A stretch of 48,503 nucleotides of DNA, from NCBI GenBank assembly GCA_945861535.1, contig CAMAUZ010000063.1:1-48503 (forward strand), written 5' to 3'. Both the position numbers and the translations under genes were made by a program. Below, piece by piece: positions 3,786 to 20,432 of this stretch (the first letter of the stretch is position 1; every line of letters starts with the position of its first letter). The DNA is from Akkermansia muciniphila (GTDB lineage Bacteria > Verrucomicrobiota > Verrucomicrobiia > Limisphaerales > BJHT01). The notes below the pieces were generated by a model. The model was not told where the DNA came from and searched no databases. It was given only the letters and a program-made list of their open reading frames with translations.

Positions 3786-4538
3786 TCAGAGAAAGGGGAG
3801 GGTGAGGTGGAGGTGGCGGAGGGGGCCGTGTGGGGTGAGGCGGAACCAGAGGACTAAACTGGGGCGGGGGCGGAGGCGGGCGCGGTGGCGCGGGGAGCGG
3901 GCGCATTTTTGGAGGTCGGCGGGGGTGAAGCGGAGGGGGAGAAAAATGCAGTGGCGTCCGGGAGTGGCGGCGGCGAGGGCGGCGGTTTCGTAGCGCAGGA
4001 GGTTGGTGATCCAAGGAGGGATCGATTTGGCGGGGGTGGCGTTTTTGTTTTCGCGGAGGAGGTGGGCGGCGAAGTGGCGGGCGTCGTCGGTGTGGTGGCG
4101 GGGGGCGGGAAGGGTTTTTTGGAATAGTAGTTTTGAGAGGAAGTGGGCGAACGGTGAGGGAGCGCGGCCCTCCGGGCCGCAGCGGGTGGGGGTGGCGGAG
4201 GTCGTGGAAATTTCCACTGCGCGTTGTGAGTTCGGGGCCGCTGCGGGCGGGACGCCCGCGCGCCGGTCGGCCCAGGCGAGGAAGCGGGGGGCGAATTGGC
4301 GGCCGAGGGCGCGACGGGTGAGGGGGAGAAGTTTGGCGGTGTCGCCGAGGCGTTTGTTTTGGAGGGAGCGGGCAAAGCGGGTGATCTCGGCGCGCGGCAG
4401 GTGGGTGAGGACAGGGAGGTCGGCGGGCGGGAGGGAGAATTGCGCGGCGACGGTGGCGGGGTGCGCGAAGAATTGTTCGCGGACGCGCGGGTCGGTGTAG
4501 AGGTGCGCGAGGAGGCGCTGGGTTTCGGCTAGGCCCAT
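3786..4538 (-). CDS. Probable MNIO partner protein (third gene of DUF692 operon)
   Basis: This is a 250-residue protein whose start codon overlaps the end of the DUF692 gene by 10 bp, so the two are translationally coupled. The N-terminal 90 residues (E-T-Q-R-L-L-A-H-L-Y-T-D-P, later R-F-A-R-S-L-Q-N-K-R) are helical and resemble the DUF2063-type partner proteins that escort peptide substrates to DUF692/MNIO enzymes. The C-terminal third may be the substrate-docking part. Residues roughly 90-130 are low-complexity because a palindromic GC-rich repeat (4158-4266) sits in frame inside the gene. The partner role is inferred from gene order and weak resemblance; no decisive motif is visible. Confidence 0.6.
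   Translation of the reverse strand: MGLAETQRLLAHLYTDPRVREQFFAHPATVAAQFSLPPADLPVLTHLPRAEITRFARSLQNKRLGDTAKLLPLTRRALGRQFAPRFLAWADRRAGVPPAAAPNSQRAVEISTTSATPTRCGPEGRAPSPFAHFLSKLLFQKTLPAPRHHTDDARHFAAHLLRENKNATPAKSIPPWITNLLRYETAALAAATPGRHCIFLPLRFTPADLQKCARSPRHRARLRPRPSLVLWFRLTPHGPLRHLHLTLPFL
4158..4266. repeat. Palindromic repeat inserted in frame inside a coding region
   Basis: Contains the palindromes CGGCCCTCCGGGCCG, GTGGAAATTTCCAC and GCGGGCGGGACGCCCGC. This is the same style as the intergenic repeats but lies within the MNIO-partner gene without breaking its frame, encoding a Gly/Pro/Ala/Arg-rich linker. Confidence 0.6.
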
Positions 4539-5452: not shown

Positions 5453-5455
5453 GGG

Positions 5456-6418
5456 TCAGTCTCCACCGCCGCCGCCACAGCCGCCGCAGCCGCCCCCACC
5501 GCCCCCGCCGCCACAACTGCTCCCACCGCTGCTACTACTGCTGCCGCAGCTGCTGCCGCTGCCGCAGGAACTGGAGGAGGATTGCTGCGGCGGGGCGAAG
5601 AGGTGGGCGTAATTTTTCCACGGGGTCTTGGCGAGGCTGGCGGTGCCGTAGATGGCGGCAAGGAGCAGGAGCGCGTCGGCGGCGAGGTGCGCGGCGGGTT
5701 CGAGGGCGGCGCGCTCGCGGAGTTTGTCGAAGGCGAGTTCGAGTTTCGCGAGATAGGCGCGGCCGCGGGCGCTGGTGTGGCGGCCGGCGCGGGCGACGAT
5801 GACGAGGAGCACGATGGTGCTGAGAATGCCCAGCGCGATGAGGAAGCCGACGTTGGTGCGACCGCGCGACAGGGCGATGCAGAGTTTGTAACCGCCGAGG
5901 CCGAGGATGAGCGCTGCCGCAGCGAGGCCCGCGGGCACGGCGGCGGCGGCGACCGCGGGCGGACAGAGGAGAAACTCGGCGTGCAGTTTTTGTTCGTAGG
6001 CCTTGGCGAGGCGGTCGAAGAGCGGGCCGGTGTCGGCGAGCCGGGCGGCGGACCAGGCGTTTTGGGGCGTGGCGAAGAGATCGAAGATTTCCCGCTCAAC
6101 CGGCGAGAGATGGCGCGGGTCGGGGTGACCTTTGGCGTGGAGGATTTGTGCCGGAGTGCCGGCGGTTTCCAGATAGTTGCGGTCGATGAGGCCGAGGATC
6201 AGGACGTGGATGAGTTCCGCGCGATTGCCGCGGAGGAAGGCGGTTTCGAGGGGATCGATTTTCGGGGGGACGGGCGGCGCGTGGAGTGAACCGGTGGTGT
6301 CACGCGAGCGGAGGTAGAGGTGGACGAGGACGAGGGTGGCGATGATGACGGTGGCGTAGAGGGCGAGGAAGTCAGGGCCGCGCAGGTCGGCGATGGGATT
6401 GTGGAGGAGCCAGTTCAT
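5456..6418 (-). CDS. TIGR04222-like membrane protein with Gly/Ser/Cys-rich C-terminal tail
   Basis: 320 residues. An N-terminal membrane helix (about 18-36) is followed by a soluble region with D-P-L-E-T-A-F-L-R-G-N and S-P-V-E-R-E-I-F typical of TIGR04222 proteins. Then come two hydrophobic segments (about 150-175 and 190-208) and an Ala-rich helix (about 240-258). From about residue 282 the chain is almost pure Ser, Gly and Cys: three S-S-C-G units, then a poly-Gly stretch with two more Cys, ending G-G-D. Five tail cysteines are present. It is the first gene of an operon with the DUF692 enzyme (3 bp downstream) and its probable partner. I infer that the tail is the modified substrate, by analogy with Cys-rich precursors of other MNIO enzymes. 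The low-complexity tail is encoded by CCG/CCA repeats but stays in frame. Confidence 0.85.
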   Translation of the reverse strand: MNWLLHNPIADLRGPDFLALYATVIIATLVLVHLYLRSRDTTGSLHAPPVPPKIDPLETAFLRGNRAELIHVLILGLIDRNYLETAGTPAQILHAKGHPDPRHLSPVEREIFDLFATPQNAWSAARLADTGPLFDRLAKAYEQKLHAEFLLCPPAVAAAAVPAGLAAAALILGLGGYKLCIALSRGRTNVGFLIALGILSTIVLLVIVARAGRHTSARGRAYLAKLELAFDKLRERAALEPAAHLAADALLLLAAIYGTASLAKTPWKNYAHLFAPPQQSSSSSCGSGSSCGSSSSSGGSSCGGGGGGGGCGGCGGGGGD

Positions 6419-6469
6419 TCTGGGAAATGCAGTTGAAACCGGGGACCGAAGCGCAGCGCGGCGAGACTG

Positions 6470-6606
6470 GTAGCGCAGGTTTCCAAACCTGCTGTGTCGC
6501 CGACTTCGAAGTCGGCGGGGCGTCGGCCAGCACGGGCGCGGCGAAAAGTTCCAGCGGCCGCAGGTTTAGAAACCTGCGACACAGCAGGCTTGGAAGCCTG
6601 CGGTAC
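6470..6606. repeat. 30-bp inverted repeat with inner palindromes
   Basis: Arms 6470-6499 and 6577-6606 are near-perfect complements containing the inner palindromes CAGGTTTCCAAACCTG and CAGGCTTGGAAGCCTG. A GCCGACTTCGAAGTCGGC palindrome lies between. The element fills the gap upstream of the MNIO operon; related pieces occur near 39365-39411. Confidence 0.8.
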
Positions 6607-6642
6607 GGGTGCTGGTCGGGAACGCGCGTGGCTCATGGCGGG

Positions 6643-7386
6643 TCAGAGTTTTTCCGTGAGCCGCGCGGCCTGGTGGATGGTGTCGAGGAAGGCACCGAAG
6701 AGCTGCTTGAGGGCGGCGGCATCGGGTTTGAGTTCGCCGCGCTTGAGGGCGAGGAGATCGCGCAGGAACTGGGCGTTGAGACCGAGCTTGTCGGCGTTGG
6801 CGACGGTGGTGGCTTTGGTCGCGGGACGTTCGCCGGTCTGGAGTTCGACGAGCGCGCCGAGCGTGGTGAGGAACGAGGAGACGGCGTGGGTGAGGGTTTC
6901 CTCGAGCTGCTCGGGACGGTGGCCGCGCTGGAGATAGAAGGAGCGGAGGCGGAGCAGGAGATTTTGTAATTCACGCGCGCACTGGCGGCGGAGGCGGTCG
7001 CGGGTGATCGCGAGTTGCGCGAAGATTTCGCGGCCGGCGAGCAGGCGGTGCTGGCGCTGGATGTCGGTGAACTTGATCGGGAAAACTTCGGAGAAGGTGG
7101 GCAGGTCGGCTTCGGCGAGGGTCAGCAGCGCGAGCGGGAATTCGGCGCGGGCCTGTTCCATGGCGGGGAGGAGGGCGTCCAACGCGGGGAGCGTGGCCGA
7201 GCGGAGGACGACGAGGACATTCACATCGGAATTGCCGGGTGTGAATTCGCCCTTGGCGAGTCCGCCGTAGAGCACGACGGCGATGAGCTGATCGCCGAGC
7301 GCGGCGGTGAGGTCGGTGCAGAAACGGGTGAGACCGTGGCGGATGGTTTCCGGCAGAGCCGGATCGGTTTTCCAGTCGGCGGGCAT
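6643..7386 (-). CDS. Nucleotidyltransferase-domain protein
   Basis: 247 residues from the ATG at 7386, chosen because the frame upstream of it only translates the palindromic repeat at 7443-7572. Residues about 25-50 read V-V-L-Y-G-G-L-A-K-G-E-F-T-P then N-S-D-V-N-V-L-V-V-L. This fits the G-G/S-x(9-11)-S-D-x-(D/N)-hydrophobic signature of the pol-beta-type NTP_transf_2 fold, with Asn in place of the second metal-binding Asp. The C-terminal half is helical with Arg/Leu-rich heptads and could be a substrate- or partner-binding helical domain. Targets of such enzymes include antibiotics, RNA and proteins; none can be chosen here. It is transcribed divergently from the first Ig-protein gene and is not part of an operon. 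Confidence 0.75.
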   Translation of the reverse strand: MPADWKTDPALPETIRHGLTRFCTDLTAALGDQLIAVVLYGGLAKGEFTPGNSDVNVLVVLRSATLPALDALLPAMEQARAEFPLALLTLAEADLPTFSEVFPIKFTDIQRQHRLLAGREIFAQLAITRDRLRRQCARELQNLLLRLRSFYLQRGHRPEQLEETLTHAVSSFLTTLGALVELQTGERPATKATTVANADKLGLNAQFLRDLLALKRGELKPDAAALKQLFGAFLDTIHQAARLTEKL

Positions 7387-7442
7387 GGGCGGACCGTAGC
7401 GAGGGGCGCAGGTGGCGGCGAGGGTTTTTCGGGCCGCGGGTG

Positions 7443-7572
7443 TGGGGGCAGGCATCCCTGCCTGCCGGTTCTCGGGGCATCCGTGCCCCGTGTTCCGGGT
7501 ACCGCTGCGCCGCCGCGAGGAACGGGCGGCACGGATGCCGCCCGAACCGGCAGGCTGGAAGCCTGCCCCACC
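7443..7572 (+). repeat. 130-bp palindromic element, copy 1 of 5 (GGGGCAGGCATCC family)
   Basis: Starts TGGGGGCAGGCATCC and ends GAAGCCTGCCCCACC, with an inner pair CGGGGCATCCGTGCCCCG and a CGGGCGGCACGGATGCCGCCCG palindrome. The two ends pair with each other. Other copies are at 27255, 35305, 41908 and 48149, all in the same orientation. Confidence 0.9.
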
Positions 7573-7591
7573 TCTCCGCTCACGCCATCCC

Positions 7592-7670
7592 GGACCATGC
7601 GCGCACCGACGGCGGTCCGTCGGCGGACCGCGGCTGCGGCGACGACGGACCGGACCAGGGGCCGGACCAC
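7592..7670 (+). promoter_or_regulatory. Candidate enhancer array of GGACC boxes upstream of Ig gene 1
   Basis: GGACC(A/G) occurs at 7592, 7625, 7647, 7652 and 7664. Arrays of the same box precede the sigma-54 sites of all four paralogues at 51-62 bp distance, where enhancer-binding activators usually bind. The binding protein is not in the window. Confidence 0.55.
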
Positions 7671-7723
7671 ATTCTTTGGGATGAAGACACCCCAGCGCGG
7701 GGTGAGCGGGGATTTTCACGGGA

Positions 7724-7739
7724 TGGCACCGGCGGTGCT
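7724..7739 (+). promoter_or_regulatory. Sigma-54 promoter of Ig gene 1
   Basis: TGGCACCGGCGGTGCT fits the -24/-12 consensus TGGCACG-N4-TTGCW, with GG and GC separated by exactly 10 bp. It lies 80 bp before the ATG, within a block conserved upstream of all four paralogues (GGGGTGAGC...CACGGGATGGCACC). Confidence 0.8.
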
Positions 7740-7819
7740 CCATTCCGGTCCAGCGATAGGTCGCGTCATGATTGCAAGGAAGCAACCGGACCGGCCAGGG
7801 ACGAAAACTGAAAACAATT

Positions 7820-10397
7820 ATGGACAGCAACTACCGAAAACTCCTCCTCCTCGGAAACGTCATCCTCGGCCTGATGGCACTCTCGGCCAAGGCGGCCGGG
7901 ACCAAGCCCGCGATCAGCACCCAGCCGACCGCGACACTGAACGCGGCGGTGGGCACCTCACCCAGTCTCACGGTGGTTGCCTCGGGTACCGCGCCGCTGG
8001 CCTACCAATGGCGCAAGGACGGGGTGCCGGTCCCCGGCGCCACCAGTGCCACCCTCGCTTTCCCCGTCGCCCAGATCATCCAATCCGGCAGCTACACGGT
8101 CGTCATCTCCAATAATGCCGGCACCGCCACCAGCACCGCCGCCAACGTCCAGATCGGATTGCCTCCGGTCATAACGGTCCAACCGCTGCCCGCCCTCGGC
8201 CGGCTCGACGACTTTGCCGAATTCGCGACGGCGGTGACGGGTTCCGCCCCGCTATCCTATCAATGGCGTCGCAATGGCGCTCCGATCCCGGGTGCAAGCG
8301 GCAACCCGTTCCAATTGAGTCCGGTGCTCGCCACCAGTGCGGGGGATTACTCGGTGGTGGTCAGCAATCCCTTTGGCTCCGTCACCAGCGCGGCGGCCTA
8401 TTTGAATGTGATGGGCATCACCGACCAACCCCTGTCGCAGGCGGTCGCGCCGGGTGCCAATGTGACCTTGATCTGCGGCGTCGCGGGCAATCCCGCGCCC
8501 GCCTGTCAGTGGTATCTTCAAGGTGGCTTTCCTATTCCCGGCGCGACCAATGCCACGCTATCGCTGACGAATGTGACCGTCGCCGAGGGGGGGGCGGTAT
8601 TATCTGGCGGCCAACTACGGCCCGGCCGAAGGCACGGTGGAAAGTGAGTGGGCGCAGTTATCGGTCACCGTTCCCGCATTGCCGTGGGCGGACCTGTTTG
8701 CGGGTCGCGGCACGATCACCGGGGCGAGCGGCTCGGGCAGCGGTAATAACTTAAATGCCACCACTGAAACCGGCGAACCCAGCTCCTATGCCTACAAGGC
8801 TAATCACTCGGTCTGGCTCAAATGGACCGCGCCCACCAACGGCGTGGTCGTCATGAGCACTGCCGGCAGTGATTTTGATACCATCCTTGGTGTATTCCAC
8901 GGGACGGCGGTGGACGCTCTGACGTTGGTGGTGGCCGATGATGAGAGTGGCGGCTATCTCAACAGCAAGGTCAGCTTCAGCGCCCAGGCGGGCGTGGAAT
9001 ACAGCATCGTCGTTGCGGGCTTTGCCGGGGCTGCGGGTCAGATCGGCTTCTCCTGGCACCTGACGCCTTCGGGGATTGCCCTCCCCGTCATTACGTCACC
9101 GCTCAGTCTTGCGGGCGTCCTGGGCAGCCCGGTGGCACTGTCGGTGGGCTATGTCGGCAACAGTGCGCCGGTGAGGGTGCAATGGCTCTTTGAAGGTCAG
9201 CCGATAACCGGCGCAACCAACGACACTCATAATCTGCCGAGTCTCCAACTGGCTCAGCTTGGCGTTTATCAGGCCCGTCTGGAAACCGGCCCCTTCACCC
9301 TGTTCTCCCGCCCGGCCGACGTGCAGATCAACACCGAAGGACTCACCCGTGCCATCGCCCAGAACCGCGAGGCGGACGCCGATCGATCCGGCATCAACGG
9401 CGGGGCCGGTCCCACGGCCGGTCTCCGGCGGCGGATCACGGCGGTGAGCGGCTACAGCGGCACGCAGATCTTCGCCACCCGCTCGGGCAAAGACCCGGCG
9501 GAACCCAATCACTGCGGCGTGGTCGGTGGTTCCTCCTACTGGCTCAGCTATGCCCCCCCGGTCACTGGCACCGTCTTTCTGGACACGGCTGGCAGCGCTT
9601 ACGATACCCTCCTCGCAGTCTATACCGATGATGGTCTGGGCAATGGTTACGCCAGTCTCATCTCTGTCGCCTGCAATGACAACGTGAGCCCCACGCTCAC
9701 GACCAGCAGCCTGACCTTCAACGGCACCGTCGGGGTCACCTATTACATCGTCGTGGACGGCAAAAACGGCGCTTACGGCTCGGCCTATCTTAATTACCGC
9801 ATCAGCGCGCCGCCGACGATCACCGCCCTGGCCGCCATGACCATTAACGAAGACACCAGCACCGGCGCCCGCGCCTTCGCCGTCGGCGATGCCGAATCCT
9901 CCGCCGCCAATCTCGTCGTCACCGCCTCGTCCTCCAATCCCGCCATCGTCCCCGCGTCGGGACTGATCCTCGGCGGCACGGGCGCCAGCCGCACGCTCAA
10001 CGTCATCCCTGCCGCCAACAAAAACGGCAGCGTCACCATCACCGTCACGGTGACCGATGCCGACGGCGTCGCCACCTCGAGCTCCTTCACCCTCACGATC
10101 ACCCCGGTCAACGACGCCCCCGTCGCCGGCACCGATACGCTCTATCGCGCCATCAATGCCAACATCACCGTCCCGATCACCACCCTCCTCGCCAACGACA
10201 CCGACGTGGACGGCAACCCCCGCACCCTGACCTCGGTGGCCAGCCTCAGCTACCTGGGAGCGACCATCACCAAGACCTCCACCAGCGTTACCTACAAAGC
10301 CAAAGCCGGTGTCAATGGTCCTGATTACTTCCTCTACACCATCAGCGATGGTCAAGGCGGCACCGCCACCGGCCGCGTGAACGTGTACGCGCAGTAG
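7820..10397 (+). pseudogene. Exported multi-Ig/PPC/cadherin-like protein, paralogue 1, frameshifted at a G8 tract
   Basis: The ATG at 7820 opens a signal peptide (K-L-L-L-L-G-N-V-I-L-G-L then S-A-K-A). Three Ig-like domains follow (each with Y-Q-W or C-Q-W and G-x-Y/D-x-V-V-x-S-N), then a PPC-like beta domain (V-W-L-K-W-T-A-P), a fourth Ig-like domain, a second PPC-like domain with conserved N-H-C-G and V-A-C-N-D-N cysteines, and cadherin/Big_9-like repeats ending G-R-V-N-V-Y-A-Q. At 8587-8594 there are eight Gs. Removing one joins the upstream frame (which otherwise stops at 8647) to the downstream frame and restores a paralogue-like sequence, giving about 858 residues. The extra G may be a real mutation, a phase-variation state or a sequencing error. 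It is likely secreted or surface-located; no anchor motif is visible. Confidence 0.85.
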
Positions 10398-10453
10398 GAT
10401 ACCCCTTCCCGTGTGGGACCTATCGCTAGGTTCCCAGTTTTCGACCACACGGC

Positions 10454-10486
10454 CCGGCCCGGACGCAAGTCCGGGCCGGATTTTTT
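10454..10486 (+). terminator. Rho-independent terminator of Ig gene 1
   Basis: A 10-bp stem CCGGCCCGGA / TCCGGGCCGG with loop CGCAAG is followed after one A by six Ts. The same hairpin follows all four paralogues. Confidence 0.9.
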
Positions 10487-10616
10487 GGTAGGGATGCGTG
10501 GCGCGCGTCCGTAACCTTTCCCCCGCCCGCCGCCCTCGTCGCCAATCAGCCGCCCCATCCTCGTCGCACGCGCACCGCGGGAAAGGGGCACGGCCGCTCG
10601 GCAGCGCGGCCCTACC
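10487..10616. repeat. GGTAGGGACGCG...GCGGCCCTACC intergenic repeat pair
   Basis: The left unit GGTAGGGATGCG...GTCCGTAACC and the right unit CACGGCCGCTCGGCAGCGCG...CTACC are imperfect complements. Equivalent pairs bracket the spacers after genes 2, 3 and 4. Confidence 0.7.
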
Positions 10617-10638
10617 CCGATGCCCGCGCGCCGTTCGC

Positions 10639-10686
10639 GGACCATCGGCCCCCCCCGGACCACCCGGACCATCGCCAGCGGACCAC
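10639..10686 (+). promoter_or_regulatory. GGACCA box array upstream of Ig gene 2
   Basis: GGACCA at 10639, 10657, 10666 and 10680, 62 bp before the sigma-54 site. Same candidate activator-binding motif as for the other paralogues. Confidence 0.55.
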
Positions 10687-10748
10687 CTCCCGGACACCCA
10701 TGGTGCCCAATCATCCTCCCCCCGGGGTGAACTGGATCAGTCACGGGA

Positions 10749-10764
10749 TGGCACCGCCGCTGCT
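10749..10764 (+). promoter_or_regulatory. Sigma-54 promoter of Ig gene 2
   Basis: TGGCACCGCCGCTGCT, GG-N10-GC spacing, 81 bp before the ATG at 10846, within the conserved GGGGTGAACTGG...TCACGGGA context. Confidence 0.8.
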
Positions 10765-10845
10765 AAAGACCCGAGCAGAGAAAGGGTACGGTCCGGGAGG
10801 TATGTGCGGATACCCCCGGGCTGGGCCGAACAAGCAACTCGTCAC

Positions 10846-13094
10846 ATGCACACTCGATTCCACAAACTCCTCCTTCTCGGCAACGTCCTCCTCGGCTTGC
10901 TGGCCCTCTCCGCCAAGGCCGCCCCGAGCGGCGGTCGCGGAAGCTCGGGGACCAAACCCGTCCTGCTCACCCTGCCCAAAGACATCAAGGACGCCATGCC
11001 CGGCTCCCGCATCACCCTCACCGCCACTGCCTCCGGCGATCCCGCCCCGCAATGGAAGTGGTATCTGCAAGGCATCCAGATTCCCGGAGCCACCCAATCC
11101 TCGCTGACCTTCACCAACGCCCAGCCCACCGATGGCGGCTCCTTCCAGGTCGTCGCCTATACTGCCAAGTCCGTGGGATAACCTACACTTTACCTCGGAG
11201 CCTAATACCTGTTCGCTCGACTATTACGGACAGGGAGGCGCTGGACTTCAGAGACAGGTGTAGTCTATCCCACGGACTTGGCAGTAACAGCGCCGGACAG
11301 GACAAAGCCGACTTCACCCTCAACTTCAAACTCGACGCGCTTCCCTTCGCCGATGAGTTCGCCAAGCGCGGCACCATCACGGGCAACTCCGGCGTCGGGT
11401 CCGGCAGCAACACCTCCGCCAAAAAAGAGTCTGGGGAACCCGCCCACTGGTCCGGCAAACACGACCGCACGGTCTGGGTCCAATGGACCGCCCCTCAGTC
11501 CGGTGTCGCCACCTTCACGACCGACGGCAGCGACTTTGACACCGTCCTGGCCGTCTATACCGGCACGACTTTCGCCAACCTCGTCCGCGTGGTGAACGAC
11601 GATAACTCCGGCGGCTACGGCAACAGCAAGGTGAAGTTAAACGCCACCGCCGGCACCACCTACGCCCTCGTCGTCGCCGGCATCGGCGACGGCCGGGGCG
11701 GTGCCAAAGGCAACTTCGTGTTCGAGTGGGAGCTGCTCGTCACGGCCACCCAGCTCAGCTATGTCACGCAACAACCGCTGTCCACCTCACTGCCACTGGG
11801 CGGCACTCTGGCTTTGACCGTCAATCTCTCCGCCAACCAGCAGTCTTCGCCGATGGTGCAGTGGTATTTCGAGAACGATCTCATCCCCGGCGCTACCGCC
11901 ACCAACCTTGTCATTAACAACGTGCAAGCCGCCAACGTCGGTCTCTACCGCGCCCACCTCCGTTGGGACCTCCTTGGAATAACCTTGTTCGGCTACTTCT
12001 CCCAAGGCGCCGACATCCAGATCAACACCGAAGGACTCACCACCGTGTTGGCTCAAAATCGTCAGATCGACTCAAACCTCACGCCCCTGGCCAGCCTTAC
12101 CCGCGGCCTGACTGCCTCCCTCCGCGCCCGCCTCACCGCCGTGGCCGGCTACAGCGGTTCCCAAATTTTCGCCACCCGCTTCGGCAAAGACCCGGACGAA
12201 CCCGATCACTGCGGCGTCGATGGCGGTTCCTCCTACTGGCTCAGCTACCAAGCCCCCAGCACCGGCACCGTTCTCCTCAACACCGTGGGATCCTCCTACG
12301 ACACCCTCCTCGCCGTCTATCTCGACGATGGCAAAGACAAGGGCTACGACAGCCTCATCAGCGTCGCCTGCGACGACGACAGCGGTCCCGATGGTCGCAC
12401 CAGCAAGCTCCAGTTCAATTGCACCGCTGGCACCACCTATTACGTCGTCGTGGACGGCGTGAATGGCGCCTACGGCACGGCCTACCTCAACTATTCTCTA
12501 GTCACTCCCCCCACCATCTCCGGGCTCGCCCCGCGGACCATCGCCGGTGACACCAGCACGCCGGTGCTGGCCTTCACCGTCGGCGGCGGCAATACCGCCG
12601 CCAGCAATCTGGTCGTCACGGCCAGTGCTGCGGACGCCACCCTCGTGCCCGCCGCGGGCATCGTCCTCGGGGGTTCGGGTGCCAGCCGCACCCTCAAGAT
12701 TACGCCCGCGCTCTACAAGAAAGGCACCACCACCATTACGGTAACGGTGCAGAATGCGGTGGGCGCGGTCGCCTCGAGCAGCTTCACGCTGACGGTTACC
12801 CCCGTGAATCACGCCCCGACCGCCGGTACCGTGACGATGCTTCGGCCCGGCAATGTTCCCGGCAAAGTCCTCCTCAAGACCCTGCTGGCCGCCTGCTCCG
12901 ATCCGGACGGAGATCCGGTCACTATCGTGAGCGTTGCGGGCATCAGCTATAAGGGGGTCAAGTGCAGCAAGGACACCACGCATCTCTTTTATTCGGCCAT
13001 CCCCGGCTATAACACCAGCGACTACTTCACCTACACCCTCAGCGACGGCAAAGGCGGCACCGCCACCGGCCGCGTGAACGTGTACGTGCAATGA
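10846..13094 (+). pseudogene. Exported Ig/PPC/cadherin-like protein, paralogue 2, interrupted by a MITE
   Basis: The ATG at 10846 begins a signal peptide almost identical to paralogue 1 (K-L-L-L-L-G-N-V-L-L-G-L, ending S-A-K-A). One Ig-like domain is interrupted after V-V-A-Y by a 123-bp insertion that brings a stop at 11179-11181. Deleting the insertion and one TA copy (125 bp) gives V-V-A-Y-N-S-A-G-Q, which aligns with V-R-A-Q-N-S-N-G of paralogue 4, and restores a 707-residue protein. After the break come the first PPC-like domain (L-P-F-A-D-E-F; V-W-V-Q-W-T-A-P), an Ig-like domain (M-V-Q-W-Y-F), the second PPC-like domain (D-H-C-G-V-D-G-G-S-S-Y-W) and cadherin-like repeats ending N-V-Y-V-Q. 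The 3' part has no start signal of its own. Confidence 0.88.
11162..11284. mobile_element. 123-bp MITE with TA target-site duplication
   Basis: Terminal inverted repeats CTGCCAAGTCCGTGGGATA (11162-11180) and its exact complement (11266-11284), extended imperfectly by CTACAC. The element is flanked by TA at 11160-11161 and 11285-11286. Excision with one TA restores the reading frame of Ig gene 2. It has no coding capacity. TA duplication is characteristic of IS630/Tc1-mariner transposition; the parent element is not in the window. Confidence 0.88.
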
Positions 13095-13126
13095 GTACGG
13101 CCCCGTAACCCATCGCCAGCCACGCC

Positions 13127-13156
13127 ACGGCCCGGACGCACGTCCGGGCCGTTTTT
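13127..13156 (+). terminator. Rho-independent terminator of Ig gene 2
   Basis: Stem ACGGCCCGGAC / GTCCGGGCCGT around GCAC, with a run of five Ts beginning at the last stem base, 32 bp after the stop. Confidence 0.88.
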
Positions 13157-13162
13157 CATTCC

Positions 13163-13411
13163 GGTAGGGACGCGTTGCGCGCGTCCGTGACCTTTCCCCG
13201 TCCACCGCGCACGTCCCCAAGGCCTGGTTTGCCAGGTCCCGAACGCCGCGGCCGCCTGGGTTCGGAGTTCCGCGTTTACGCGGCCCGCGGGTTGCACCCC
13301 GCCCGAACCGCGTAAACGCGGAACTCCAAACCGCCGCCAAACCACCGCGCCACTTTTCATTCCGACGCGCGGGAAAAAAAGGCCACGGCCGCACGGCAGC
13401 ACGGCCCTGCC
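13163..13411. repeat. GGTAGGGACGCG intergenic repeat with nested 20-bp inverted repeat
   Basis: The outer pair is GGTAGGGACGCGTTGCGCGC (13163) and CACGGCCGCACGGCAGCACG (from 13384). Nested inside is a perfect 20-bp inverted repeat, GGAGTTCCGCGTTTACGCGG at 13264-13283 and its complement at 13308-13327. No gene seen. Confidence 0.8.
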
Positions 13412-13433
13412 AGGACGCCTGCGCTCCGTTCCC

Positions 13434-13484
13434 GGACCATCGGACCACCCCGGACCACCGGAACGGACCACCCCTGCGGACCAC
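13434..13484 (+). promoter_or_regulatory. GGACCA box array upstream of Ig gene 3
   Basis: Five GGACCA(C/T) boxes at 13434, 13442, 13452, 13465 and 13478, 51 bp before the sigma-54 site. This is the densest of the four arrays. Confidence 0.6.
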
Positions 13485-13535
13485 CTCTGTCGCCCAACCC
13501 CCCTTCCCACGGGGTGAACCGGACAAAACACGGGA

Positions 13536-13551
13536 TGGCACCGCCACTGCT
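13536..13551 (+). promoter_or_regulatory. Sigma-54 promoter of Ig gene 3
   Basis: TGGCACCGCCACTGCT, GG-N10-GC spacing, 81 bp before the ATG. Confidence 0.82.
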
Positions 13552-13632
13552 CTAGCCCACACCAGCGAAAGGTCGCGCGCCGACGGCAAGGAAGCCACCG
13601 GACCGACCAACAACGAAATCAGGGCAAAAGAC

Positions 13633-16600
13633 ATGAACTCACGCATCCGCAAAGTCCTCCTCCTCGCCAACGTCATCCTTGGCCTCGTGGCGCTCTCCGC
13701 GAAAGCCCAGACCACCATCTCCATCACCAGCCAGCCAGCCGATGTCACCCGTGCGGTTGGCAGCTCCGGCTCCATGAGTGTCTCCGTGACCGGTGGCTCG
13801 CCTTACACCTATCAGTGGTATTTCCAGAACGCCCCGATCCCGGGTGCCATCGCCAATAGACTGAGCTTCAGCGGCACCCAGGCGGCGCAGGCGGGCGGCT
13901 ACCAGGTCGTGGTGGCCAATGCCGCCGGCTCGGTCACCAGCCGCGTCGCCACCCTCACCGTCTATCAGGCTCCGGTCATCACGCAGGAGCCACTCGACCA
14001 GACCGCGCCCGTCAACAGCACCGTCACCCTGAGCGTCACCGCCACCGCCGTCCCCGCACCGACTTACCAATGGAAATTCAATGGCACCCTGATCCCCGGT
14101 GCCACTTCGCCCGAACTCGTCCTGCCGGCCGTCACCAGCGCCAACGCTGGCGACTATGTCGTCTTCGTCACCAACCCCTACGGCGACTACACCAGCAGCA
14201 CCGCGAAGCTCCAGGTCAGCTATCCGCCGGTCATCTCCTCCCAGCCGTCGGGTCTGGTGATGGAAGCGGGGTCCTCGGATAAATTCTACGTCTCCGCCTC
14301 CGCGATCTCGGCGTTGTCCTATCAATGGTATTTCAACGGTGCCGCGCTCACCGGGGCGACCAACCAAGACCTGTTGTTCGAGAACCTCCAGCCCGCGCAG
14401 AGCGGTTTCTACGGGGTCATCGTGAGCAATGACGCCGGCGCCACGACGAGCGAAGAGGCCTATCTCAACGTTTATGTGAAGCCGGTCTTCACCCAGCAGC
14501 CCGTGGAGGCCACCGTTGCGCAGCATCAATCCATCACCTTCACCGCCGTCGCGACCGGCGTTCCCGCCCCCGCCTATCAATGGTTCAAGGGCAGCACGCC
14601 GATTCTTGGGGCCAACGGCAGTTCCTTCGCCATTCACAACGCCCAAGTCACCGACATGGCGGACTACAGCGTGATCGCCTCCAACCCTTACGACACCGTC
14701 ACCAGCGCCAACGCCGCCCTGACCGTGACGGCCCCGCCGGCCATCACCGCCGAGCCGGCGGATGCCTTCATCCCCTACAACGCAAAGGGTGAGTTCGCCG
14801 TCACCGCCATCGGCACCGGCCCGCTCGTTTATCAATGGTTCTGGAATGGCGCGGCCATCGCCGGCGCGAATAGTGCCGACTTCAGCGTTGACCATGTTTT
14901 CCCGGCCAACACCGGCAGCTACTCCGTGCGCGTCAGCAATGCCTACGGCTCGGTCATGAGCCGCGCCGCGAGTCTGGATGTCTTCCAAATCCCGGTGTTC
15001 ACGCTCCAGCCGCTCAAGGCCCAGACCAATGCGGTCGGCTCCACCGTCACCCTCACCGCCGCCGCGACCGCCATCCCGCCGGTCACGCTGTATCGCTGGT
15101 ATCTGAACAGCGTCCCGATCCCGGGTGCCACCGGCCCGTCGCTGACGCTGACGAACCTCACCGGTGCCGATGGCGGCAACTTCACGGTCGAGGCGCTCAA
15201 CCTTTATGGAGCCACGATGAGCAAGGATGCTTTGATCCGTGCCGACCTCCCGGCCCTGCCGTTCATGGACAATTTCGGCAACCGCAAGGCGATCCTCGGG
15301 CTCTCTGGCGCGGGCTACGGCGACAATCGCCTCTGCACGTACGAACTGTACGAACCCTCGCACTACGGCAGGACCTCCAAGCGCTCGACCTGGCTCAAGT
15401 GGGTCGCCCCCACCAACGGCGTCATGGTCATCGACACGGCTGGCAGCTCGTTCAACACCGTCCTCGCGGCTTACACCGGCTCGAAAGTGGACGCCCTGAC
15501 CCGCGTCACCTCCGACGACGACAGCGCCGGTTTCGCCAACAGCCGCATCGTCTTCAACGCCGCTTACAATGTGAGCTACTCCCTCGTGGTCGCCGGCCGT
15601 CCGGGTGATGAGAAAGGGGACGTGTTCTTTAGCTGGACCTTCTACCCCACGGAAACGCGCCTGCCGGTCATCACCAGCCAGCCGGTGGATGTCTCCGTCA
15701 CCGCTGGCTCGCCCGTCACCCTCGCCGTCGCCTACGGCAGCAATAACGCTCCGGTGCTGGTGCAATGGTTCTTCGAGTCCCAACCCATCGCCGATGCGAC
15801 GAACAACACCTACACGATCCCCGCGCTCGACGGCACGCAGATCGGCCGATACCGCGCGGAACTTGCCTGCGGCGGCTTCACCTTCAGCACCCGCACCGTC
15901 GAGGTCCAGATCAACACCGAAGGCCTGGCCAATGTCATCGCCCAGAACCGGGCCGATGACGCCAGCGACTCCGGGATCAACGGCTGGAACGCCCCGACCG
16001 CCGGCCTGCGCCGCCGCATCACCGCCGTCAGCGGCTACTCCGGCTCCCAGGTCTTCGCCACCCGCTCCGGCAAAGACCCCGGCGAACCCAACCACTGCGG
16101 CGTGGTCGGCGGCTCCTCCTACTGGCTCAGCTACGTCCCCGCCAGCAAGGGCGTCCTCCGCCTCAACACCGACGGCAGCACCTACGACACCATCGTCGCC
16201 GTGTATGTCGATGACGGCCTGGGCAACGGCTATGCCAGCCTGCTCCCCGTCGGCTGCAATGACAACGGCGGTGCCAACGGCCTCGCCAGCAAGGTGGACC
16301 TCAGCGTCACCAACGGCGTCACCTATTACATCGTCGTGGACGGCAAGAACGGCGCCTACGGCACCGCCACCCTCAACTACCTCCTCACCGCCAACCCGAC
16401 GATCTCCACCGTCGCCGCCGTGACGATCAACGAGGACGCGATCACCGCGCCGCTCGCCTTCACCATCGGCGACCTCGAGACCAGCGCCGCCAGCCTCTTC
16501 GTGGCGGCCACCTCGTCCAACCCGACCAAGGTGCCCAACGCCAACCTCACCCTCGGCGGTTCGGGAGCCAGCCGCACCCTCACCGTCCGCCCGGCCACCA

Positions 16601-16980
16601 ACCAGAACGGCACGGTCAGCATCAGCCTCGTCGTCACCGACGCCCACAATCAGAAGGCCACCAACTCGTTCACCGTGACCATCACGCCCGTCAACGACGC
16701 TCCCGTCGCCGGCACGGACACGGTTTACCGCCTGGCCAACCTCAGCGTCAGCATCCCGATCAGCACCCTGCTGGCCAACGACACCGACGTGGACGGCACG
16801 ACGTCGGTCTTTAACACCGTTGCCTCCATGAGCTTCCAGGGCGCGCCGGTGGCCAAGAGCGGCAACTTCATCAACTACACCGCGGTCCCCGGGAAAAACA
16901 CCCCCGACTACTTCACCTACACGATCATAGATCCCTCCGGCGTCGTCGCCACCGGCCGGGTGAACGTGTACGTGCAATAA
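13633..16980 (+). CDS. Exported protein with seven Ig-like domains, two PPC-like domains and cadherin-like repeats (paralogue 3)
   Basis: 1115 residues, the only long paralogue that reads through intact. Signal peptide 1-26 (K-V-L-L-L-A-N-V-I-L-G-L, cleavage after S-A-K-A). Six consecutive Ig-like domains of about 85 residues each (about 27-535) carry the I-x-x-Q-P opening, Y-Q-W core and a final V-x-x-S/A-N-x-x-G strand. Then come PPC-like domain 1 (T-W-L-K-W-V-A-P), Ig domain 7 (L-V-Q-W-F-F), PPC-like domain 2 (N-H-C-G-V-V-G-G-S-S-Y-W; G-C-N-D-N), and cadherin/Big_9-like modules (N-D-A-P-V-A-G-T-D-T; L-A-N-D-T-D-V-D-G) ending G-R-V-N-V-Y-V-Q. The N-D-x-D acidic motifs suggest calcium binding. 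It is probably a secreted adhesin or polymer-binding protein, but no ligand can be named. Transcribed from its own sigma-54 promoter. Confidence 0.9.
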   Translation: MNSRIRKVLLLANVILGLVALSAKAQTTISITSQPADVTRAVGSSGSMSVSVTGGSPYTYQWYFQNAPIPGAIANRLSFSGTQAAQAGGYQVVVANAAGSVTSRVATLTVYQAPVITQEPLDQTAPVNSTVTLSVTATAVPAPTYQWKFNGTLIPGATSPELVLPAVTSANAGDYVVFVTNPYGDYTSSTAKLQVSYPPVISSQPSGLVMEAGSSDKFYVSASAISALSYQWYFNGAALTGATNQDLLFENLQPAQSGFYGVIVSNDAGATTSEEAYLNVYVKPVFTQQPVEATVAQHQSITFTAVATGVPAPAYQWFKGSTPILGANGSSFAIHNAQVTDMADYSVIASNPYDTVTSANAALTVTAPPAITAEPADAFIPYNAKGEFAVTAIGTGPLVYQWFWNGAAIAGANSADFSVDHVFPANTGSYSVRVSNAYGSVMSRAASLDVFQIPVFTLQPLKAQTNAVGSTVTLTAAATAIPPVTLYRWYLNSVPIPGATGPSLTLTNLTGADGGNFTVEALNLYGATMSKDALIRADLPALPFMDNFGNRKAILGLSGAGYGDNRLCTYELYEPSHYGRTSKRSTWLKWVAPTNGVMVIDTAGSSFNTVLAAYTGSKVDALTRVTSDDDSAGFANSRIVFNAAYNVSYSLVVAGRPGDEKGDVFFSWTFYPTETRLPVITSQPVDVSVTAGSPVTLAVAYGSNNAPVLVQWFFESQPIADATNNTYTIPALDGTQIGRYRAELACGGFTFSTRTVEVQINTEGLANVIAQNRADDASDSGINGWNAPTAGLRRRITAVSGYSGSQVFATRSGKDPGEPNHCGVVGGSSYWLSYVPASKGVLRLNTDGSTYDTIVAVYVDDGLGNGYASLLPVGCNDNGGANGLASKVDLSVTNGVTYYIVVDGKNGAYGTATLNYLLTANPTISTVAAVTINEDAITAPLAFTIGDLETSAASLFVAATSSNPTKVPNANLTLGGSGASRTLTVRPATNQNGTVSISLVVTDAHNQKATNSFTVTITPVNDAPVAGTDTVYRLANLSVSIPISTLLANDTDVDGTTSVFNTVASMSFQGAPVAKSGNFINYTAVPGKNTPDYFTYTIIDPSGVVATGRVNVYVQ

Positions 16981-17008
16981 AAAGCCGCACGCTCCCGACG
17001 GAAAACGC

Positions 17009-17040
17009 CACGGCCCGGATGCAAGTCCGGGCCGTGTTTT
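17009..17040 (+). terminator. Rho-independent terminator of Ig gene 3
   Basis: 11-bp stem CACGGCCCGGA / TCCGGGCCGTG, loop TGCAAG, followed by TTTT. Confidence 0.9.
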
Positions 17041-17050
17041 GGTTTGGTTT

Positions 17051-17339
17051 GGTAGGGACGCGTTGCGCGCGTCCGTGACCCTTCCCTGGGTGTGATTGAA
17101 AGTCGGTGCGGGTCGCGGCGGAGGGGAGCCAATCGCCGACGAGGGCAATGTGGAGTGCGGTGGCAAGTCGGACGCGACACCGCTTTCTCACGGGCGGGCG
17201 CGTCCCAAAGCGGTGTCGCGTCCGACTTGCCACCGCACTCCATAACTCCCGCCGGACGCGCCCGAGCGCCCTGATGCGCCCGCAACCGCGCCCGCCGCAC
17301 CGCCGAAAAGTCACGGCCACGCGGCAGCGCGGCCCCACC
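17051..17339. repeat. GGTAGGGACGCG repeat enclosing a 176-bp hairpin element (copy 1)
   Basis: The outer pair begins GGTAGGGACGCG at 17051 and ends at 17339. Inside, 17089-17264 is a block repeated at 20105-20280 (offset 3016 bp). The block includes a perfect 36-bp inverted repeat (17151-17186 and 17207-17242), which contains GTGCGGTGGCAAGTCGGACG. Reading frames through it are not genes. Confidence 0.85.
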
Positions 17340-17360
17340 ATGATGCGGCGCTCCGTTACC

Positions 17361-17409
17361 GGACCAGCGACCCCGCGGACCAGCCACCGGACCACGGCCA
17401 GCGGACCAC
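17361..17409 (+). promoter_or_regulatory. GGACCA box array upstream of Ig gene 4
   Basis: GGACCA at 17361, 17377, 17389 and 17403, 51 bp before the first sigma-54 site of this gene. Confidence 0.55.
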
Positions 17410-17460
17410 TCCCGGTGCCCAACCGCCCTTGCCGCGGGGTGAACCGGACCAATCACGGGA

Positions 17461-17476
17461 TGGCACCGCCATTGCT
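17461..17476 (+). promoter_or_regulatory. Sigma-54 promoter 1 of Ig gene 4
   Basis: TGGCACCGCCATTGCT matches TGGCACG-N4-TTGCW at all but one position. It lies in the conserved upstream block but 250 bp from the ATG, much farther than in the paralogues. Confidence 0.82.
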
Positions 17477-17607
17477 CAAGCCCACACCAGCGAAAGGTCG
17501 CGCGTCGATGGCACGGATGTCACCGGACGGGCGCAGCGATTGGCGGGTAGCCACAACATTAAGTCGCAGGGCGGCCTTCATGCCGCAGAAACCGCCGCCC
17601 AACCGCG

Positions 17608-17623
17608 TGGCACCGCGGTTGCT
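17608..17623 (+). promoter_or_regulatory. Sigma-54 promoter 2 of Ig gene 4
   Basis: TGGCACCGCGGTTGCT with GG-N10-GC spacing, 103 bp before the ATG. Unlike the other sites it is not preceded by its own dense GGACCA array. Confidence 0.75.
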
Positions 17624-17726
17624 ATTGTCAGTGTCGGCTGGCGGGCGGACCAGCGGACAGATGGAGCGGTATAAACACGGTCAACCAAGGTCGGGGCAAC
17701 GTTCGAAAACAAGGGTCATTCAAGTT

Positions 17727-19838
17727 ATGAAATCAAAGCGCAGTATTACTTCTAGCCGGTTCCGGTTTTATCTCACTTTCGCCGTATTGGCGGGAGTGTT
17801 GGCGACGCGGGCATCAGCCAGTTGGGGTGACTGGTGGAACTGGTGGGGCAACGGGGCGCAGATCACGTCTCAGCCCGCCAATGCGACGGTCAATCCGGGA
17901 GCCAACGTGACGTTCACCGTCACTGCGAGCGGTTCGCCCGCACCGACGTTTCAGTGGCTCCTCCAGGACATTCCGATTCCGGGGGCGACCAGCGCCAGTC
18001 TTACGCTGACGAATGTGCAGCCCGCCGACGGCGGCGCATATTCGGTCCGCGCCCAAAACAGCAATGGTAGTGATCACAGCGATCCGGCGCTCTTGACCGT
18101 AAGTGTCCCTGCCCTCCCGTTCGCCAACGCGTTTGCGTCCCGTGGCGAGATCACTGGCCTCACCGGCGTGGGTTCCGGCAACAACAGTTCCGCCAACACG
18201 GAAAACTACGAACCGCGCCATCATCCCAGCGCGCGGAACCGCCGCACGGTGTGGCTGAAGTGGACCGCGCCGGATTACGGCAAGATGACCCTCAACACCG
18301 CTGGCAGCGCCTTTGACAGCATTCTGGCCGCCTACACCGGCACGAGCTTGACCGGCCTGCAACTGGTGGCCAACGACGACGACAGCGGCGGCTACGAGAA
18401 CGCCCGCCTGGCGTTCTACGCCCACGCTGGGACCACCTATTCGTTCGTCGTCTCCAGCGCGGATTCCGCGGGTGGCAACCTCGTTTTCGCCTGGAACTTC
18501 GTCCCCAGCACGGTCGTGCTCGCGGGCATTGCCGGCCAGCCGGCGCATACGTCCTTGAACCGCGGCGAAGCCCTGTCCCTCGCAGTGTCGCTGTCCGAGA
18601 CCAACGCCGTCGCCACCGTCCAGTGGTTCTTCGAGACGGCGGCCATCTCGGGCGCCACCAACACCACGCTCGTGATCCCGAATTTTCAGGATGCCGGGGT
18701 GGGCGTTTACCGCGCGGTCGTGACCTCGGCCGGCGAGAGCATCGCGTCGCAGGCAGCCGAAGTGCAGATCAACACCGAGGGCGCGCTCAACGTGGTCCTG
18801 CGCAACCGCCAGGATGACGCCGATGCGACCGGTCTGCGCAGCGGCCCGATCAACACCAGCGGCCTGCGCCGTCGTATCACCTCCGTGACCGGCTACTCCG
18901 GCACCCAGGTCTTCGCCACCCATTCCGGCAAAGACCCCGGCGAACCCGATCACTGCGGCGTCGTCGGCGGCTCCTCCTATTGGCTCAGCTACGTGCCCGG
19001 CTCGACCGGCGTCATGACCCTCAACACCGACGGCAGCGGCTACGACACGCTCCTCGCCGTGTATCTCGATGACGGCCTGGGCAACGGTTACGCCAGCCTC
19101 ATCTCGGTGGCCTGCGACAACAACAGCGGCATCGACGGTGTGGACAGCCGCCTCACCTTCGCCGCCACCTCCGGCCTCACCTACTACATCGTGGTGGACG
19201 GCGTGAACGGCGCTTACGGCACGGCCTACTTGAACTACAGCCTCAAGGTCCCGCCCACCATCACCAGCATCGCCGCGCAGACCATTGCGGAAGACACCAA
19301 CACGGGCAACCTGGCCTTCACGATCGCCGATTTTGAATCGGCCACGACCAATCTCACGGTCACCGCGACCTCCTCGAACACCAACCTCGTGCTCGCCGGC
19401 GGCATCACCCTCGGTGGTTCGGCAGGCAGCCGCACGGTCAAGGTCACGCCGATCGCCAATTCCAACGGCGTCGTGAACATCACCGTCACCGTCACCGATC
19501 CCGACGGCCTGAGCGCCAGCACGGTGTTCGCCGTCACGGTCACCGCGGTGAACGATGCCCCCACCGCCGCCACGGACACGCTCTACCGGCCGGTCAACGT
19601 CTCGATCTCGGTCCTCATCTCCACGCTCTTGGCCAACGACAAAGATGTCGATGGGGACACGCGCACGCTCACCGGCACGGCGAGCCTGAGCTACCTCGGC
19701 GCGACCATCACCCGCGATGCGACCCGGGTCTATTACACGGCGCGCGTGGGCTATAATTCGCCCGATTACTTCACCTACACGATCAGCGACGGCAATGGCG
19801 GCACCGCCACCGGCCGCGTGAACGTGTACGCGCAATAA
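17727..19838 (+). CDS. Exported Ig/PPC/cadherin-like protein (paralogue 4)
   Basis: 703 residues from the ATG at 17727. The frame is open upstream to 17106, but that part only translates repeats and promoter. The signal peptide (residues 1-31, ending T-R-A-S-A) differs from the other paralogues and is followed by a Trp-rich W-G-D-W-W-N-W-W segment. Order: one Ig-like domain (I-T-S-Q-P; F-Q-W-L-L), PPC-like domain 1 (L-P-F-A-N-A-F; V-W-L-K-W-T-A-P), an Ig-like domain (T-V-Q-W-F-F), PPC-like domain 2 (D-H-C-G-V-V-G-G-S-S-Y-W; V-A-C-D-N-N), cadherin/Big_9-like modules (A-N-D-K-D-V-D-G-D) and the shared C-terminus G-R-V-N-V-Y-A-Q. The shared C-terminal 450 residues are strongly alike in all four copies; the number of leading Ig domains varies (3, 1, 6, 1). 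Likely secreted. Confidence 0.9.
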   Translation: MKSKRSITSSRFRFYLTFAVLAGVLATRASASWGDWWNWWGNGAQITSQPANATVNPGANVTFTVTASGSPAPTFQWLLQDIPIPGATSASLTLTNVQPADGGAYSVRAQNSNGSDHSDPALLTVSVPALPFANAFASRGEITGLTGVGSGNNSSANTENYEPRHHPSARNRRTVWLKWTAPDYGKMTLNTAGSAFDSILAAYTGTSLTGLQLVANDDDSGGYENARLAFYAHAGTTYSFVVSSADSAGGNLVFAWNFVPSTVVLAGIAGQPAHTSLNRGEALSLAVSLSETNAVATVQWFFETAAISGATNTTLVIPNFQDAGVGVYRAVVTSAGESIASQAAEVQINTEGALNVVLRNRQDDADATGLRSGPINTSGLRRRITSVTGYSGTQVFATHSGKDPGEPDHCGVVGGSSYWLSYVPGSTGVMTLNTDGSGYDTLLAVYLDDGLGNGYASLISVACDNNSGIDGVDSRLTFAATSGLTYYIVVDGVNGAYGTAYLNYSLKVPPTITSIAAQTIAEDTNTGNLAFTIADFESATTNLTVTATSSNTNLVLAGGITLGGSAGSRTVKVTPIANSNGVVNITVTVTDPDGLSASTVFAVTVTAVNDAPTAATDTLYRPVNVSISVLISTLLANDKDVDGDTRTLTGTASLSYLGATITRDATRVYYTARVGYNSPDYFTYTISDGNGGTATGRVNVYAQ

Positions 19839-19863
19839 CCGGCGCGCCCGCACCGGAAAACGC

Positions 19864-19895
19864 CACGGCCCGGACGCAAGTCCGGGCCGTGTTTT
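19864..19895 (+). terminator. Rho-independent terminator of Ig gene 4
   Basis: 11-bp stem CACGGCCCGGA / TCCGGGCCGTG, loop CGCAAG, then TTTTGTTTT. Confidence 0.9.
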
Positions 19896-19900
19896 GTTTT

Positions 19901-20361
19901 GGTAGGGACGCGTTGCGCGCGTCCGTGACCCTCCCCCATTCAACGTTGAGCGTTGAACGTTGAGCGTTGAACGTTCCCTCCCCCGTCTGCGTTTCCCCTT
20001 TTTTTCTTTGCCCGCCACACCACGGGAAAGGCCACGGCCGCGCGGCAGCGCGGCCCTACCATATTTCGGTAGGGACGCGCTGCGCGCGTCCGTGGCCCTT
20101 CCCAGGTGTGATGGAAAGTGGGTGCGGGTCGCGGCGGAGGGGAGCCAATCCCCGACGAGGGCGATGTGGAGTGCGGTGGCAAGTCAGACGCGACACCGCT
20201 TTCTCACGATCGGGCGCGTCCCAAAGCGGTGTCGCGTCCGACTTGCCACCGCACTCCATAATTCCCGCCGGCCGCGCCCGTCCCGCTCGGCGGCCCCGTC
20301 CACCTCGCCCGCCCCACCGTGGAAAAGGTCACGGCCGCGCGGCAACGCGGCCCTACCGGGA
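19901..20361. repeat. Repeat-filled spacer: GGTAGGG units, GTTGAACGTT tandem repeat, hairpin copy 2
   Basis: Two GGTAGGGACGCG units (19901, 20071) are each followed by a matching CACGGCCGCGCGG...CCCTACC unit (20033-20060 and 20328-20357). A short tandem repeat of AACGTTGAGCGTTG type lies at 19939-19974. The second copy of the 176-bp hairpin block is at 20105-20280. No gene is supported here. Confidence 0.8.
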
Positions 20362-20432
20362 TGCGCCCGGGACCCGTTGCCGGGATTTCTTTTGCGGCAG
20401 CGGTGCGGCTCTGGCATTGGAGGGGCGCTTTT

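Follow-up and report, generated by a model that had tools for sequence, protein, structure and literature searches.

Four adjacent genes on a 48,503-nt contig from Akkermansia muciniphila (CAMAUZ010000063.1 of assembly GCA_945861535.1; hereafter the window) encode exported proteins built from immunoglobulin-like (Ig), PPC and cadherin-like domains, and each gene is preceded by a sigma-54-like promoter site and, further upstream, by a cluster of direct CGGACCA repeats (Table 1). We propose that a small sigma-54 regulon, specific to this lineage and devoted to exported adhesin-like proteins, has its main locus in this array and is served by an activator acting on the repeats, a reading that we consider probable (roughly three in four) from the sequence patterns. 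An earlier note on this DNA, the original prediction, had described several of the motifs concerned; these are confirmed, as parts of a larger conserved regulatory unit that it saw incompletely.

The window is contig C63 of a 7.94-Mb genome in 169 contigs. The nearest relative compared was sister genome G001 of the same genus (contigs C223, C347 and C392), in which L010, L013 and L011 hold the orthologues of genes 1, 2 and 4, respectively. A further sister locus, L012, has no promoter region in the comparison because its contig begins inside the gene. A search for the paralogue family gave matches only in these two genomes, and three distant homologues (L014-L016) were covered by a pattern scan only.

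Sigma-54-like sites and CGGACCA repeats at the array

We scanned for the sigma-54 pattern TGGCACN5TTGCW and compared counts with a first-order Markov null (both strands, 60 runs). With at most one mismatch the window held five sites, all on the plus strand and all at the array (null mean 1.6, maximum 5 in 60), which bears out the claim of a sigma-54 site for each gene, gene 4 having two. In all five, GG at -24 and GC at -12 stand 10 bases apart. The pattern TGGCAYN6TGCW occurred nine times in 437 kb (both strands of the window and 14 loci of this genome): five times at the array, once at a fifth paralogue on contig C28, twice on C38 and once at a fliW-csrA cluster. The C28 paralogue has a single promoter in a similar layout; in promoter type it agrees with the proximal site of gene 4, and its leader resembles the one behind that site. 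By pattern scan, three sister loci retain sigma-54 sites, and the distant homologue L016 has two sites with one mismatch. The distance from promoter to gene, said to be conserved, is so in genes 1-3 (about 80-81 nt from site end to start codon) but not in gene 4 (about 250 nt from the distal site and about 103 nt from the proximal one). The CACGGGA-type context noted at the same time is exact at all four genes and nowhere else in the genome; other matches carry two mismatches, and the reversed-pattern control gave six such.

Upstream of each promoter, at 58-133 bp, lie three to five direct CGGACCA repeats. This is the commonest heptamer of the four upstream blocks, which at 91 bp each hold 16 of the 26 plus-strand copies in the window and none of the three minus-strand copies (0.05 expected). 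Distances from the repeats to the -24 element recur, at -58 to -61, -70 to -73, -84/-85, -93 to -96, -101 to -105 and -111 to -113, both in the window and at sister loci L011 and L013, while gene 1 and its orthologue have a repeat spacing of their own in common.

Occurrence of the repeat-promoter unit beyond the array

Three CGGACCA copies with gaps of 1-14 occurred genome-wide only at the array and at C38:28107-28149 (reversed-pattern control, 0). This second place (locus L045) holds two tandem units, at C38:27972 and 30001, each with a sigma-54-like site (TGGCATTGCCGCTGCT) and with repeats or near-repeats upstream. The protein encoded in the first is exported, 199 aa long and has a transglutaminase core; the second encodes a shortened 86-aa relative, and further downstream follows a stand-alone receiver-domain protein. 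Because the C38 repeats were found blind and sigma-54-like sites lie there too, the repeat predicted a site outside the set from which it had been derived.

Across 320 genomes of the order, repeat plus promoter matched nine times in the genome of the window, four times in the sister and zero to four times in each of the other 318, level with reversed-pattern controls. Eight of the nine matches lie at the array and C28, and we take the ninth (C2:178827-178912) as chance; 25 genomes outside the genus had one to four matches each. In a search for the triple repeat in 293 genomes of the order, matches in 24 genomes outside the genus were set aside, those listed being on inspection mostly short-period tandem repeats of another kind. 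The combination of repeat and promoter is thus concentrated in the two genomes of this genus, and the unit of the array was not recognised elsewhere in the order. A promoter-leader model found four sites in the genome itself and three in the sister, all of them in its training set; a single additional match, a weak one (E 0.09), turned up among 20 genomes.

Array genes and their products

The four strongest terminator-like sites listed for 7400-20400 coincide with the four gene ends, as the original prediction had it, and all are GC-rich hairpin-T terminators of one type. That each paralogue has its own promoter had been put forward as the unusual point; monocistronic genes with their own promoter and terminator are in fact ordinary. 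A short dispersed repeat, GGTAGGGACGCG, stands at 13163, 17051, 19901 and 20068, directly after three of the terminators and once further downstream. A long, near-perfect inverted repeat with two intergenic copies (17157-17236 and 20173-20252) looks like a dispersed mobile hairpin; microRNA-like Rfam matches at both copies were rejected as RNA families, being below threshold and long inverted repeats.

The proteins vary in the number of Ig_3 stretches (3, 1, 6 and 1 in genes 1-4) in front of a shared C-terminal module with 48-58% identity to that of gene 3 among the window genes, in agreement with the earlier description. Genes 1-3 have one type of signal peptide in common and gene 4 has another. 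All four proteins end in ATGRVNVY(V/A)Q; no PEP or LPXTG sorting motif was seen by eye, and Pfam and NCBIfam scans returned no sorting family.

The PPC label is poorly served by profile matching, since PF04151 matched five of ten aligned members weakly (best E 0.055) and the first member not at all, but predicted structure supports it. In a model of the C-terminal module (predicted local distance difference test, pLDDT, 78.6; predicted template modelling score, pTM, 0.49), the Ig domain at about 134-222 aligns with MALT1 (Z 14.3, root-mean-square deviation, rmsd, 1.3 over 85 residues), and the tandem collagen-binding domains of 5iku span its two jelly-roll domains (Z 11.2, rmsd 18.8 over 220, the pair being flexible). 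Modelled alone (pLDDT 81.8, pTM 0.78), the second jelly-roll aligned best with collagenase PPC domains (1nqj, Z 11.6, rmsd 2.5, 106 residues; 5sv5, Z 11.3, rmsd 2.6, 103 residues), followed in the ranking by modules of similar fold, including parts of clostridial toxins, at Z 8.6-10.8. The predicted fold is that of a PPC jelly-roll. The products would be Sec-exported Ig stalks carrying a C-terminal block of two PPC domains, one Ig domain and one cadherin-like domain; such proteins are presumably displayed at the surface, and their domain types make binding of polymers or cells the most likely role.

The frameshift in gene 1 is located in a run of eight G (8587-8594); it may have arisen in the assembly, be fixed in the lineage, or reflect a switch that works by changes in run length. 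The insert in gene 2 is an IS630-derived miniature inverted-repeat transposable element (MITE); at C34 and C97, IS630-type transposase open reading frames lie at elements with the same ends as this MITE, the C97 frame having been checked against Pfam.

Table 1. Positions of repeats, promoter sites, leaders, genes and terminators of the array, numbered from the first base of the window.
Feature	Start	End	Strand	Details
Gene 1 repeats	7591	7669	+	CGGACCA at 7591, 7651, 7663; CGGACCG at 7624, 7646
Gene 1 sigma-54 site	7724	7739	+	TGGCACCGGCGGTGCT; sister L010 has TGGCATCGGCGGTGCT
Gene 1 leader	7750	7819	+	5' hairpin and GGA hexaloop hairpin at ~7772-7785; transcript start inferred from -12 element
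Gene 1	7820	10397	+	exported Ig(3)-PPC-Ig-PPC-cadherin protein; frameshifted in this assembly, open in sister L010
Gene 1 terminator	10454	10479	+	
Gene 2 repeats	10638	10685	+	CGGACCA at 10638, 10656, 10665, 10679
Gene 2 sigma-54 site	10749	10764	+	TGGCACCGCCGCTGCT
Gene 2 leader	10775	10845	+	diverges most among the four leaders; loop GCGGAU, 10806-10811
Gene 2	10846	13094	+	exported Ig(1)-PPC-Ig-PPC-cadherin protein; split by insert, open in sister L013
MITE in gene 2	11162	11284	+	123 bp, TA-flanked, terminal inverted repeats; ends recur at C34, C97
Gene 2 terminator	13127	13152	+	
Gene 3 repeats	13433	13483	+	CGGACCA at 13433, 13441, 13451, 13464, 13477
Gene 3 sigma-54 site	13536	13551	+	TGGCACCGCCACTGCT
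Gene 3 leader	13562	13632	+	GGA hexaloop hairpin at 13585-13596
Gene 3	13633	16980	+	intact; 1115-aa exported Ig(6)-PPC-Ig-PPC-cadherin protein
Gene 3 terminator	17009	17036	+	
Gene 4 repeats	17360	17408	+	CGGACCA at 17360, 17376, 17388, 17402
Gene 4 distal sigma-54 site	17461	17476	+	TGGCACCGCCATTGCT; perfect consensus
Gene 4 first leader	17487	17556	+	GGA hexaloop hairpin at 17509-17522
Gene 4 proximal sigma-54 site	17608	17623	+	TGGCACCGCGGTTGCT; perfect consensus
Gene 4	17727	19838	+	intact; 703-aa exported Ig(1)-PPC-Ig-PPC-cadherin protein, different signal peptide
Gene 4 terminator	19864	19891	+	

Predicted leader RNAs and a possible link to flagella

Behind the promoters lie seven leaders of one type (type A; four in the window and three in the sister) with two hairpins, both predicted by unconstrained RNAalifold. 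The first, GCGA-loop-UCGC, is common to them and disturbed in gene 2; the second is a short hairpin with GGA in its loop, the GGA being invariant in all seven while neighbouring bases vary. In the second hairpin all three pairs have bilateral changes, with 81% of cells pairing. The covariation is modest: among 500 shuffles, 4 attained the joint score of the two helices, as did none of six slid versions. CsrA sites have been described as GGA in a six-base loop, mostly on stems of at most four pairs, with ANGGAN in RsmE (PMC7652899). The form of the GGA hairpin resembles such sites, and action of CsrA on the array is a tentative suggestion that we hold somewhat less likely than not.

The single csrA of the genome (C3:23434-23592) adjoins fliW and a flagellin gene, and this fliW-csrA-flagellin cluster (L047:4922-6577, on C3) has a sigma-54-like site, TGGCATGGTCATTGCT, ahead of fliW. 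Contig C12 has perfect sigma-54 sites before flgB-flgC-fliE and about 0.8 kb before flgD, the latter inside or at the start of the preceding open reading frame. It is plausible that RpoN controls the Ig array along with csrA and the flagella, and this arrangement suggests that coat and swimming are controlled together.

The leader hairpins might instead stabilise the RNA or be the site of a regulator other than CsrA, a strong competitor that we place somewhat short of even odds. The 5' hairpin starts about 3 nt from the inferred transcript start, the GGA loop lies about 40 nt before the start codon and not over a Shine-Dalgarno sequence, and Rfam gave no family match in the leaders; a cyclic di-GMP riboswitch was rejected, with no Rfam match even at E values up to 10. 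Against this alternative, the constant GGA, the hexaloop size and the short stem fit the published description of CsrA sites, and this genome has its csrA adjacent to fliW, the pair being preceded by a sigma-54-like site.

Candidate activators and the reading of the repeats

The genome encodes one RpoN. Its strong enhancer-binding proteins number seven; each has a receiver and an AAA+ domain, and six have a match to a Fis-type helix-turn-helix (HTH). Together with the common CGGACCA repeats and the recurrence of the promoter-leader unit in the sister, these components support the co-regulated family originally proposed more strongly than its own evidence did.

The repeats could, however, bind a repressor or a nucleoid protein, with the true activator acting from other sites or from solution. 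All seven candidates have receiver domains and six a Fis-type HTH match; such domains typically read dyads, and CGGACCA is not palindromic. The repeats at C38, moreover, stand at a larger distance from the promoter. We consider this alternative unlikely, because the array repeats lie 58-133 bp upstream of -24, in the range where activators usually sit, and no CGGACCA occurs within 200 bp upstream of either of the two flagellar sites. Nla28 of Myxococcus xanthus also offers a precedent: this activator uses imperfect direct repeats of 8 bp, three to five in tandem, that precede sigma-54 promoters in clusters (PMC9765219).

Several observations weigh against the regulon that we propose or against its leader component. 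Perfect sigma-54 sites number four in the genome (two at gene 4 and two in the flagellar region of C12), with no excess over the reversed-pattern control (6), and at two mismatches or fewer the window is not enriched (13 found vs 21.6 expected); the evidence of the sites therefore lies in their position and not in their number. The C38 repeats are further out (-112 to -159) and partly read CGGACCG or CGGACGG. The genes for the enhancer-binding proteins are unlinked to the array, C28 and C38, and near those seven genes CGGACCA occurs only as scattered single copies, by which no activator could be assigned. As assembled, two of the four array genes (1 and 2) are interrupted, and a set of four working genes is thus not supported. 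As to the leaders, the seven represent just three gene lineages and gene 3; folding of single type A leaders was not significant (z -0.46 to -1.48 for the seven); and shuffling any single leader gave a GGA hexaloop with two closing pairs in 10-23% of cases. Six of the seven leaders have NNGGAN with two or more closing pairs at the aligned place and four have ANGGAN, the sister gene 2 leader is without the closing pairs of the GGA hairpin, and no GGA hexaloop is present in the leaders of C28, of the proximal gene 4 site or of the second L010 promoter.

Descent of the array

In the tree, gene 1 pairs with L010, gene 2 with L013, and gene 4 and C28 with L011, while gene 3 falls on the branch of gene 1 and L012 on that of gene 2. 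Since paralogues pair across species, the lineages are older than the species split. The idea that the array grew by duplication of cassettes is supported by the tree, with the qualification that these lineages predate the split and that one lineage has a copy elsewhere (C28). The upstream flank (4302-7434) has 90-92% DNA identity and lies next to the gene 1 orthologue in L010, vs 78% for gene 1 itself. In L010 another paralogue, likewise with a promoter to itself, follows the gene 1 orthologue, so that behind a shared upstream flank the array has different members in each species. The downstream flank of the gene 4 orthologue (L011) resembles the window in short repeats only. Upstream of the array, 3789-6418 (minus strand) holds an enzyme of the MbnB/TglH/ChrH family (4532-5452) and two flanking genes without Pfam matches; this region has 90% DNA identity in the sister and is a possible cluster for a ribosomally synthesized and post-translationally modified peptide.

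Promoter, leader and repeats might be alike merely because the genes are copies, with conservation reflecting descent and not function, and genes 1-3 indeed have the whole 5' region in common down to the signal peptide. This we judge very unlikely: across the paralogues of the window and the sister, the C-terminal modules have only 47-60% identity to that of gene 3, yet the heptamers and the -24/-12 core are nearly unchanged; the lineages predate the species split; and at C38 repeats and sigma-54-like sites stand before unrelated genes. Independent transcription from sigma-70-type promoters, with accidental -24/-12 matches, is scarcely credible: the genome-wide count of perfect sites would allow it, but sigma-70-like sites in 7400-20400 number 0 vs 1.5 expected, all five good window sites fall at the array on one strand, and three sister loci keep theirs.

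Proposed regulation and comparison with known systems

In the regulon that we propose, an enhancer-binding protein encoded elsewhere would bind the CGGACCA repeats that precede each gene, and looping of the DNA from the repeats would open RpoN polymerase at each -24/-12 site, so that the paralogues would be switched on together while each is transcribed singly. A second gate is possible, on weaker ground than the sigma-54 and repeat step: CsrA would bind the leader at its GGA hairpin and would itself be released or occupied according to FliW and flagellin, by which the surface coat would be coupled to the assembly of flagella. The full two-gate regulon, in which a dedicated activator serves the array, C28 and the C38 transglutaminase-like/receiver units, the CsrA-FliW-flagellin switch sets translation and flagellar state times the Ig/PPC coat, seems to us doubtful.

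To our knowledge, the surface proteins of Verrucomicrobiota are mostly uncharacterised. Sigma-54 regulation is hardly described for the phylum in the literature searched, and we found no description of such a system among work on Verrucomicrobia sigma-54/RpoN, on Ig surface proteins of the phylum, on RpoN-CsrA-FliW-adhesin links or on sigma-54-driven paralogue arrays. A defined seven-base repeat, a small regulon whose members can be listed and a possible CsrA-FliW link would make the decision to attach or swim testable in this phylum.

Francke et al. (2011; PMC3162934) presented sigma-54 as a controller of the bacterial exterior, and the array resembles the cases there in that sigma-54-like promoter sites go with flagella and cell-surface functions. 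It differs in being a tandem Ig/PPC/cadherin array with a common repeat block, and Verrucomicrobia do not appear in the text of that paper. A parallel is Aquincola pepA, an RpoN-dependent gene for an exported matrix protein needed for floc aggregation (PMC9850573); its product is of the PEP-CTERM kind, whereas the array proteins end in a cadherin-like domain, have no PEP motif that we could see at the C-terminus and come as an array. The Nla28 regulon of M. xanthus is similar in its clusters of three to five short direct repeats upstream of sigma-54 promoters, which there serve as activator half-sites; the repeat of that system is CT[C/G]CG[C/G]AG and the regulon a large one for starvation, in contrast to CGGACCA and very few targets here (PMC9765219). 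With the Hag-FliW-CsrA switch the array's genome has in common adjacent fliW, csrA and flagellin genes, and its predicted leader hairpins resemble the GGA sites of hexaloop type known there (PMC7652899, PMC6529632); the difference would be that CsrA might also act on leaders of surface proteins unrelated to the flagellum. That sigma-54 controls functions of the bacterial exterior is already established as a kind of regulation; what this case would add to it are the CGGACCA repeat, the tandem array and, possibly, a second gate.

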